A stretch of DNA of 64,000 nucleotides from Alphaproteobacteria bacterium. GTDB lineage: Bacteria > Pseudomonadota > Alphaproteobacteria > Micropepsales > Micropepsaceae. Location of the stretch: contig JAJPIX010000059.1 in the NCBI GenBank assembly GCA_021324545.1, forward strand, positions 1 to 64,000, written 5' to 3'. Position 1 is the first letter of the stretch, and every line of letters begins with the position of its first letter. Below are positions 5,541-57,779 of this stretch, in pieces. The notes beneath the pieces were generated by a model. It had not been told where the DNA came from. It saw only the letters and a list, made by a program, of their open reading frames with translations, and made no database searches. The position numbers were made by a program, and so were the translations under genes.

Positions 5541-5579
5541 ACTGAATCCTCCGTGGCGCCGGTTTTGACGTTAGCCTAA

Positions 5580-5667
5580 CCCGCCCCTTGGGGGCGGGTC
5601 GAAAAATTCGCGCCAGGCGAATTTTTCGGGGCGGGGACAATGCGGCCTCCCCCAAGGGGAGGGTTAG
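5580..5667. repeat. Intergenic palindromic repeat, GC-rich arms flanking AT-rich hairpin
   Basis: Consists of a G/C palindrome (CCGCCCC TTGG GGGCGG), a perfect 10-bp inverted repeat GAAAAATTCG with its complement around CGCCAGG, then CTCCCC CAA GGGGAG. The same modular design recurs at 29245-29300 and twice within 32749-32882. It lies just upstream of ppk2 on its non-coding side. Confidence 0.8.
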
Positions 5668-6010
5668 AGGTGAGCGTGATGGTCCAAACAAATAAGGCGG
5701 GTGAAGCCCGGCCCCCGCGCGGAATAGGAAACGCGCGGAGCGGCCATCCCGCCCCGGTCAACAAGCGCCTGGCAGGCCGGCGGAAGGCCCTGATCACGGG
5801 CACAATCGCACGGCACCTTCGCTTCCACACCACCCCGGGCCATTGGTGGGACGTTTCGGCCTTTCCGGCTGCGAGCGCCTTGGCTGCTCCGCGGCACTTG
5901 AAGAAAAACCGGCCAGTCCCCGCGCGGGTTGCACGCGAGCTTGCACCCTTGCCCTGTCTGTTCTCGCGATAAATCTAGAAGGTCATCTCCATCGTTCGCC
6001 CGTTTGGCAT
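5668..6010. other. Unresolved segment, overlapping open frames on both strands
   Basis: This 340-bp segment is not explained by a recognised gene. On the plus strand ATG 5679, preceded by AGAGGTGA, opens a 97-codon frame to 5972 with an Arg/His/Pro-rich product (contains KALITGTIARHLRFHTTPGHWW). On the minus strand an antiparallel frame runs 6053-5664 (contains GLPPACQALVDRGGM), but its only upstream start is a TTG lying above the SOS box. The internal inverted repeats and the lack of convincing protein features fit a structured RNA, read from the minus strand below the SOS box, at least as well as a protein. I assign no function. Confidence 0.4.
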
Positions 6011-6015
6011 CGCGA

Positions 6016-6030
6016 GAACATATAGAGAAC
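6016..6030 (-). promoter_or_regulatory. Candidate LexA (SOS) box, GTTC-N7-GTTC
   Basis: Read on the minus strand the site is GTTC TCTATAT GTTC, an exact match to the direct-repeat operator bound by alphaproteobacterial LexA. It stands immediately upstream, in minus-strand sense, of the unresolved segment 5668-6010, and 3 bp before ATG 6033 of an undistinguished plus-strand frame. The site is seen directly. LexA binding is inferred from the family consensus. Confidence 0.6.
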
Positions 6031-6163
6031 CCATGTTGGGAAATCAAGCCCAAGATGTAGTGTTTAGTCCTCTAGCCATGGGAGGCGCGGAAAATCACCG
6101 AAACCATATTCGGGGGTCTGCAGAAAATACGGCGTCTATTCTCTGCAAACGTGCGGAGATTAG

Positions 6164-9292: not shown

Positions 9293-9429
9293 CGCCGAAC
9301 AAGCGCAGCGCCGTGAGGCGGAGGGGGCGCTTTGCACGTGTGCCGGTAGCGTTCGGCGCAGACATTCCGCAAGCTCCGTCGCCGCTTGCGGATGGCCCGC
9401 GCGCCTCATGCGCCCCGCATGAAGTTGGA

Positions 9430-9575
9430 CGACGCACGACCGGCAGGTTTCCTGGCTCGCGGCGTTTGGCCTTGGTCCGCCTTCCCGGTTTCCCAGTGGC
9501 ATCGTGGACAAGGCACGCCGCTCACAGTTGCGGGGGCAGCTGCGGCTTTCACCACATTCCCTTTCACCGTCGCGC
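9430..9575 (-). promoter_or_regulatory. Cobalamin (B12) riboswitch
   Basis: On the minus strand the conserved landmarks occur in order: GGTGAAAGGGAATGTGGTGA, GCTGCCCCCGCAACTGT (B12-box region), GCCACTGGGAAACCGGGAAGGC, and the pairing partner CGCGAGCCAGGAAACCTGCC. These match the core of the adenosylcobalamin-class aptamer closely. It lies downstream of btuF and upstream of btuC-btuD, so it probably represses the permease and ATPase genes when cobalamin is plentiful. It cannot control btuF directly, because btuF is transcribed before it. Confidence 0.93.
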
Positions 9576-9623
9576 AAAATGGATATTAGAGCGATATCTT
9601 CTTGAATAAAAGCAGCCTCACGG

Positions 9624-32697: not shown

Positions 32698-32748
32698 GGA
32701 CGATCATTCCGCGGCCTTCTTCGCAAGGAAGGGAAGAAAACAAGGCTA

Positions 32749-32882
32749 CCCGCCCCTTGGGGGCGGGTCGAAAAATTCGAGCGCATGCGAAGAATTTTTC
32801 GGGGCGGGGACAATGCCACCGCTTCCGTCCCCTCCCCGAAATTTGCGGGCGCAAATTTCGACCCTCCCCCAAGGGGAGGGTA
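32749..32882. repeat. Double copy of palindromic AT-hairpin repeat
   Basis: Left unit: CCCGCCCCTTGGGGGCGGG, then GAAAAATTCG...GAATTTTTC, as in 5580-5667. Right unit: CCCCTCCCC, GAAATTTGCG-GG-CGCAAATTTC, CCTCCCCCAAGGGGAGGG, as in 29245-29300. The two forms therefore belong to one repeat family. A further short GC palindrome follows near 32906-32918. Confidence 0.8.
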
Positions 32883-36651: not shown

Positions 36652-36894
36652 CCCCTCCCCACTCACGACATCACATTATTCAGCGAAGCCGGCCTGCGAC
36701 CATGAAAGTCTTGCTGACGTTCCCGATATGTTCTATAATCTTTTTGGCAAGCTTCGGCTGCTCAAGAGGAAAACGGCAGAATCGATCTGTGGACAAGGAC
36801 TAGTATGCGCCCCTCAGAACTTGTGTGGCTGTCCCGGAAGGCTACGATATCTTGTGCCTTAAAGGCAGGAGATCGGGCAATGGAGCCTTCGCAC

Positions 36895-37347
36895 ATGAGC
36901 TGGACGGACGAACGCGTCGAACAGTTGAAATCGCTTTGGACAGAAGGGCTTTCCGCGAGCCAGATTGCGCGCGCGCTTGGCGGGGTCACCCGCAACGCCG
37001 TGATCGGCAAGGTGCACCGGCTGGGGCTTGCCGGCCGCGCCACCCCCACCCGCTCGGACCGGCCGCGCGTGCCTTCGGCGCCGCGCGTTTCGATGCGCGC
37101 CCATCACGTGCCGGAACCGCCGGTGGTGGAGGAAGATCCCGTCATTCTGGAAGATGGCAGCCATGCCACGGTGCTCACGATCAACGATCGCATGTGCCGC
37201 TGGCCGATCGGCGACCCGAGCGAAAACGAATTCCATTTCTGCGGGCGCAAGCCGAAAGCCGGTTCGCCTTATTGCGAGGCGCATGCGCGCAAGGCCTATC
37301 AGCCGCAACAGCAGCAGCGCCGCGACAAGGGCAGGATGGCAAGTTAA
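36895..37347 (+). CDS. gcrA: Cell-cycle transcriptional regulator GcrA
   Basis: Sigma70-associated activator of alphaproteobacterial cell-cycle genes, acting at CcrM-methylated GANTC promoters. 150 residues from the ATG of MSWTDERVEQLKSLW; the whole N-terminal helix-turn-helix (LSASQIARALGGVTRNAVIG) is conserved. The C-terminal sigma-binding part has the family pattern MCRWPIGDPSENEFHFCGR and GSPYCEAHA. Upstream in-frame ATGs exist from 36805 but lack homology. One GAATC (GANTC) site lies at 36779-36783 in the upstream region. Confidence 0.95.
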   Translation: MSWTDERVEQLKSLWTEGLSASQIARALGGVTRNAVIGKVHRLGLAGRATPTRSDRPRVPSAPRVSMRAHHVPEPPVVEEDPVILEDGSHATVLTINDRMCRWPIGDPSENEFHFCGRKPKAGSPYCEAHARKAYQPQQQQRRDKGRMAS

Positions 37348-57421: not shown

Positions 57422-57779
57422 AGGCGGGCCACAATGCAGGGGCGTCTTGAGAGCGTCAAAGCATGCCCGCTCCCCGCGCGGAAGCATCGCAGCGGAAAAA
57501 TGGCGGAATTCCAGGCCAATTGTTTTCACGAATCGCAGACCCCCTCCCCCCTCTCTCCTTCCCCCCGTTTCCGGCTTTGCATTGGACAGACTCCTTTCCC
57601 TCCGGCGGCGGGATCATTCCCGGCCGGTCCCGGCGCCGATTCGGCGCAAACAGAACATAATAGGAACATTTAGGTTAGTTGTCAAGCCATAGGTTTTACA
57701 TCTGGAACGGGTTAACCACGGCGCAGGGAAATGCGCCCCTTGGCGCAGAACTGTCCCAAAATGGGCGGCGGAGGCAGAC
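57422..57779. other. Intergenic region between divergent alr and lipoprotein genes
   Basis: 358 bp without a gene I can support. Notable only for a pyrimidine-rich run (CCCCCTCCCCCCTCTCTCC near 57541-57560), an AT-rich stretch TAATAGGAACATTTAGGTTAG at 57659-57678 in two parts that may hold the promoter of the gene at 57780, and a GGTTAACC palindrome at 57710-57717. Nothing else is evident. Confidence 0.5.

Follow-up and report, generated by a model that had tools for sequence, protein, structure and literature searches.

What is transcribed below the LexA-type box near the left end of this contig? The window, by which we mean the whole 64,000-nucleotide stretch of alphaproteobacterial DNA analysed here (contig JAJPIX010000059.1, positions 1 to 64,000), carries the GTTC-N7-GTTC box GTTCTCTATATGTTC at 6030-6016 on the minus strand, where the original prediction had placed a LexA operator. 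Two opposing reading frames occupy the segment beside it, both present as first described: a minus-strand ORF at 5664-6053 whose only start, a TTG, lies above the box, and a plus-strand ORF at 5640-5972 that comprises 97 codons if begun at ATG 5679. Three readings had been offered, namely an SOS-controlled non-coding RNA, a damaged SOS gene and a small plus-strand protein. Comparison with related genomes makes it highly probable that the segment is an RNA gene under LexA control. The fuller description, in which the segment belongs to a lineage-specific family of structured, stand-alone RNAs that are under LexA control and genuinely include a short reading frame (mini-ORF), is as a whole still probable on the comparative evidence. 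The features are as follows.

6042 to 6047, minus strand: -35 element TTGATT, 17 nt before TATATG, a layout shared by sister copies
6016 to 6030, minus strand: LexA operator GTTCTCTATATGTTC, an exact box also present in 45/99 family copies
6019 to 6024, minus strand: -10 element TATATG, within the LexA box
5685 to 6012, minus strand: structured RNA gene of about 325 nt, matched at 5743-5976 by model R2 in the own-genome search (124 bits, E 4e-28); both ends are predicted, the start (about 6012) from the -10 element and the end (about 5685) from the terminator
5975 to 5992, minus strand: mini-ORF ATGGAGATGACCTTCTAG, from ATG to TAG, reading MEMTF*, or MTF* from the second ATG
5963 to 5968, minus strand: 5' strand of pseudoknot helix S1, CGCGAG, pairing with 5939-5934 (covariation)
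5953 to 5960, minus strand: conserved CAKACAGG, of which C, A, A, C and A are unpaired and nearly invariant (97-100%)
5951 to 5954, minus strand: 5' strand of long-range helix S3, GGGC (covariation)
5942 to 5948, minus strand: 5' strand of helix S2, GGGTGCA (covariation)
5934 to 5939, minus strand: 3' strand of S1, CTCGCG (covariation)
5926 to 5933, minus strand: 3' strand of S2, TGCAACCC, with one A bulged (covariation)
5841 to 5925, minus strand: variable insert from the pseudoknot to S3, from the alignments of 38 and 100 copies
5837 to 5840, minus strand: 3' strand of S3, GCCC (covariation)
5813 to 5825, minus strand: conserved motif GAAGCGAAGGTGC, holding the 5' strands of P5 (5824-5821) and P6 (5817-5815)
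5763 to 5773, minus strand: 3' strands of P6 (5773-5771) and P5 (5766-5763) (covariation)
5685 to 5755, minus strand: terminator region GGGGCGGG...CACCCGCCTTATTTGTTTG, read from the sequence
5579 to 5636, no strand assigned: dispersed inverted repeat, outside the RNA family, with many copies in this genome and its relatives

A DNA search of 61 genomes with positions 5560-6060 returned two kinds of match, the dispersed inverted repeat and short matches at about 5913-5987 in the same genome and its relatives. The surroundings of the short matches share a common order of promoter, CAKACAGG, hairpin, GAAGCGAAGGTGC and terminator. A first model of 53 positions picked up strong further copies. Forty-three places were extracted, and 38 of these entered the first full alignment, from which model R2 (206 positions) was built; L099, L103, L104, L105 and L106 were dropped, their second motif not being clear. 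R2 listed over 140 matches in the genus, and 60 further places were taken from the top of that list, lower ones and some at contig ends being omitted. L099 re-entered the resulting 100-copy alignment at 43.9 bits, while L103-L106 lay outside that search. L255, which has too little upstream sequence, is excluded from counts of 99 below and scored as a miss in counts of 100.

Copies detected by R2 are present in 35 of the 69 genomes of the genus, with seven in the window's own genome and a maximum of 11 in one genome, so that the search of relatives envisaged in the original prediction did uncover conserved copies. The other 34 genomes have no copy at E 0.01, and either the RNA is dispensable to the group or diverged copies were missed by R2. 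At 41 of the 100 loci a neighbouring gene recurs, with side and strand unchanged, beside a locus of another genome; many copies have therefore been inherited in place. There was no credible copy elsewhere in the class when R2 was run on 289 genomes spread over the Alphaproteobacteria: five genomes matched at E 0.01, two of which belong to the genus itself, and the remaining three matches are weak (22.5-26.8 bits). Two of the weak out-of-genus matches were judged false, as their alignments lack the CAKACAGG-pseudoknot core. A pattern scan covering 84,980 species, each represented by one genome, gave 93 stretches, of which R2 clearly confirms 16 (12/80 and 4/13); their record titles name uncultured Alphaproteobacteria or Proteobacteria. 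A Sphingomonadaceae sequence, L210, reaches 20.3 bits with R2 and is a borderline candidate. Plasmids contained no match to 5560-6060, and neither of two pattern matches in viral contigs was matched by R2 at E 0.1. An uncertain impression had been recorded that similar paired frames occur in other Alphaproteobacteria, favouring a conserved RNA; the conserved RNA holds, and its breadth does not, since copies were found in one genus only. No Rfam family (4227 searched) matched at its gathering score over the RNA, in the window or at nine further family loci, and a literature search found no paper on such an RNA family, though work outside the searched collection is possible. Folded RNA genes of this many-copy family, found in one genus, have apparently not been described before.

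The core of the family is a pseudoknot. S1 (5968-5963 with 5939-5934) crosses S2 (5948-5942 with 5933-5926), giving an H-type arrangement, and in a covariation scan S1 (columns 12-44) ranked first and a pair of S3 (columns 25-202, five pair types) second. In the 38-copy alignment, 94.0% of the cells of 24 pairs are standard-paired, against 28-44% for slid versions of the pairing, and 15 pairs show double changes. The double-changed cells number 94, compared with 27.8 in shuffles that leave kinship between copies in place, and none of 500 shuffles was as high. In 100 copies, 62 of them outside the model-building alignment, 92.6% of cells are paired and double-changed cells number 260 versus 80.5 shuffled. 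That alignment was fitted to S2, S3, P5 and P6, not S1; in S1, five pairs are nevertheless formed in 95.5% of cells and the sixth in 91.3%, with double changes in all six. The innermost S3 pair (columns 39-234) fails in 34 of the 100 copies. The pseudoknot and further helices thus show strong covariation. Almost no variation is seen at the unpaired positions of CAKACA or at a GC that follows P6, which points to a putative binding site.

Downstream, a terminator-like site is found in 76 of 100 copies, compared with 14/94 upstream and 21/100 antisense; in the window, an automatic terminator scan picked a shorter hairpin inside 5685-5755. The adjoining repeat at 5579-5636 is a separate element. 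The GC-rich inverted segments noted in the original prediction are present, and this one is no part of the RNA. It gives a weak match to whalefall-1 (RF01762) at about 5577-5638, 26.1 bits against a cut-off of 37 and outside the RNA. A GC-rich dispersed inverted repeat also occurs at 32748-32881.

The LexA box of the window copy overlaps the -10 element of a sigma-70-type promoter, and the operator is so placed as to block that promoter, as expected for a member of the LexA (SOS) regulon. An exact box lies within 130 nt upstream of 45 of 99 copies in the sense direction and of 1/99 in antisense, and its significance therefore comes from its position across the RNA family. The bare motif in the window is near chance: three exact GTTC-N7-GTTC sites compare with 1.55 expected, and at least three occurred in 22 of 100 shuffles. 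The whole genome is mildly enriched, with 70 sites versus 47 for the reversed pattern. Upstream of recA an exact box is present in all three genomes that could be read there, the fourth recA lying at a contig end. At nine further exact boxes in the window's own genome (L286-L293 and L295) R2 scored at most 7.8 bits. One of these, L286 (~589; G000:C30:4288), has a promoter with GTTCTCTATATGTTC ahead of a strong hairpin that does not match the RNA family.

Other copies carry a different promoter. The heat-shock-type pattern CTTGA-N-CCATNT was found in 24 of 99 copies and in neither of two controls. A CTTGAA-N-CCCATNT promoter, which we take to be the RpoH consensus, is shared by sister copies, not by the window copy, with heat-shock genes of the same genomes. 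Ten hsp20 genes from five genomes were read; four have CCCATCT, four more have CCCACAT behind CTTGA, and two have no strict promoter match. groES was not useful as a heat-shock reference, the readable upstream stretches showing another promoter type; the repeat found there is presumably CIRCE. By strict pattern, 34 of the 99 copies have neither promoter. Both are present in four copies, where a heat-shock promoter coincides with an exact LexA box: L229 (genome G083), L087 (G021) and two copies of G065. In L229 the box and the heat-shock pattern overlap as GTTCCCCATTTGTTC, a double site. Within one syntenic group, the heat-shock form of L087 also fits the box pattern, and L269 and L273 carry LexA boxes. 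On a tree of the copies, which uses 208 columns and has many weak forks, the SOS-only and heat-shock-only types require at least six changes.

The mini-ORF sits immediately ahead of the pseudoknot. Its definition required a Shine-Dalgarno-like stretch for the start codon and a stop codon placed from -15 to +3 relative to S1, and such Shine-Dalgarno-led mini-ORFs are found in 54 of 100 copies versus 12.7 in shuffles. With ATG starts only, the figure is 34 versus 4.8, the largest shuffle giving 12. The frame has 1-3 codons in 38 of the 54 copies (2-3 codons in 37) and 5-21 codons in the other 16. Its stop starts at -9, leaving a 6-nt spacer, in 25 of the 54, and at -3, with no spacer, in 13. At position -9, 29 copies have a T[AG]N triplet, and in 28 it is one of the three stops (UAG, UAA and UGA), as would be expected were the stop itself conserved. 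The remaining 46 copies have no Shine-Dalgarno-led mini-ORF, several having a GC-rich hairpin instead. They include the window copy, whose mini-ORF also stops 6 nt ahead of the pseudoknot and has no Shine-Dalgarno by the criterion used. The leaders of L256, L257, L258, L269 and L273 hold peptides, or start-less relics, of the form TRGRPKGPI*, and leaders of other copies have the form RGRPxVPxRR*. This RGRP form, which we take to resemble AT-hooks, could be a genuine peptide motif or simply reflect a GC-rich hairpin; it was set aside as a motif of the longer mini-ORF peptides because the same bases form a GC-rich hairpin in copies lacking the ORF.

We propose that LexA represses the window RNA and that DNA damage would release it, while sister copies would be released by heat shock. 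Judging by its footprint size, a ribosome that begins or finishes translation at the mini-ORF would lie over, or directly against, the 5' strand of S1. Translation of the mini-ORF may thereby set the timing of pseudoknot closure, or it may shield the 5' end of the RNA. Such coupling of the RNA to its mini-ORF has a chance a little short of even. More tentative is our suggestion that the core, once closed, acts as the effector by binding either a protein or the ribosome. Equally speculative is the combined idea that a start-stop or few-codon frame halts a ribosome at the entrance to the pseudoknot, letting the RNA sense the state of translation, and that copies are rewired between heat shock and SOS by a few base changes. 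The last part is suggested by how closely the heat-shock -10 region found in sister copies, such as GTTCCCCATTTGTCC, approaches a LexA box.

Long open frames on both strands of the window invite the alternative of a protein gene, small or damaged, on either strand, and this has the least chance of the readings considered. Neither opposing frame has a match in Pfam, and fully open frames across the family (sense 79/100, antisense 93/100) are near the values for dinucleotide shuffles (62 and 79), a slight excess that may be explained by the folded, GC-rich sequence. Composition thus largely explains the frames proposed as a damaged SOS gene and as a 97-codon plus-strand protein; double changes that keep pairs and many length differences between copies also tell against a protein. 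The SOS-controlled non-coding RNA is, by comparison, strongly supported by covariation, by the LexA box in the -10 element, by terminators and by the many copies. Scarcely more probable than a protein gene is a readthrough or frameshift signal by which a longer protein is made at times. A stop, a 6-nt spacer and an H-type pseudoknot do resemble viral recoding signals, and 25 of 54 copies have that spacer; against this, 13 of 54 have none, the kind of stop varies (UAG, UAA, UGA) and the in-phase frame is no more open than the others (frames of at least 60 codons in 20, 21 and 21 of 54 copies), on which ground the idea was rejected.

Two further explanations retain the RNA and assign it another task. 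It could be a base-pairing small RNA whose copy-specific insert pairs with target mRNAs while the core serves as a stable scaffold. The insert between the pseudoknot and S3 is indeed the variable part in both length and sequence, and terminators are present; yet known small RNAs usually pair through their conserved part, and here the strongest conservation sits in the folded core, which leaves this reading rather unlikely. We consider it improbable that the RNA is a minigene inhibitor, in which ribosomes that start on AUG-NNN-stop meet a rigid pseudoknot and either stall or release peptidyl-tRNA by drop-off, so that an abundant stress RNA throttles translation. Frames of 2-3 codons near the pseudoknot (37 of the 54 ORF-bearing copies), the 6-nt spacer from stop to pseudoknot in 25 of 54 and the many copies per genome would suit it, but ORFs run to 5-21 codons in other copies, the identity of the second codon varies between copies and the 3' domain would be superfluous. 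The axe-txe locus likewise has a two-codon reading frame, and this minigene reportedly acts in cis, possibly on mRNA stability, and is described in a heading as non-toxic to E. coli (PMC8708949). It precedes a protein gene, whereas the mini-ORF of the RNA family precedes a pseudoknot and no gene (PMC8708949). For the preferred reading of a LexA-controlled structured RNA with its mini-ORF, the roughly 100 copies form a natural series in which the RNA core, the mini-ORF and the promoter type vary separately, and both the coupling of mini-ORF to pseudoknot and the two-regulon switch are therefore directly testable.

Among known systems, alpha tmRNA (RF01849) likewise combines a folded structure, pseudoknot included, with a short reading frame. 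The family is neither tmRNA nor a replacement for it, as a separate alpha tmRNA is encoded elsewhere, once per genome, in all five genomes tested; ARAGORN called no tmRNA in the window. The SOS pair TisB/IstR of E. coli similarly involves a LexA-controlled short transcript. A type I toxin such as TisB would have a conserved toxin-length frame, and the family differs in that no such frame is kept across copies: frames are near shuffled expectation, mini-ORFs mostly have 2-3 codons, and there is a strong folded core instead. The DNA-damage-linked small RNAs of another Alphaproteobacterium, Caulobacter crescentus, are alike in that link, and those induced by mitomycin, including ChvR, are reported to have no GTTC-N7-GTTC box near their start sites, unlike the window RNA with its box in the -10 element (PMC6237742). 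The present family makes a strong comparative case that, in the Alphaproteobacteria, a LexA box can head a structured RNA.

The other two exact boxes of the window lie far from the RNA gene. GTTCCCGATATGTTC (36719-36733) is just upstream of a plus-strand GcrA gene at 36805-37347 (PF07750, E 9e-52), and from its position could put this cell-cycle regulator under SOS control. GTTCCTATTATGTTC (57653-57667, minus strand) lies about 125 nt upstream of a minus-strand alanine racemase gene. The window also contains a cobalamin riboswitch (RF00174, 96.7 bits) at 9424-9586 on the minus strand, upstream of a minus-strand FecCD-type transporter gene.
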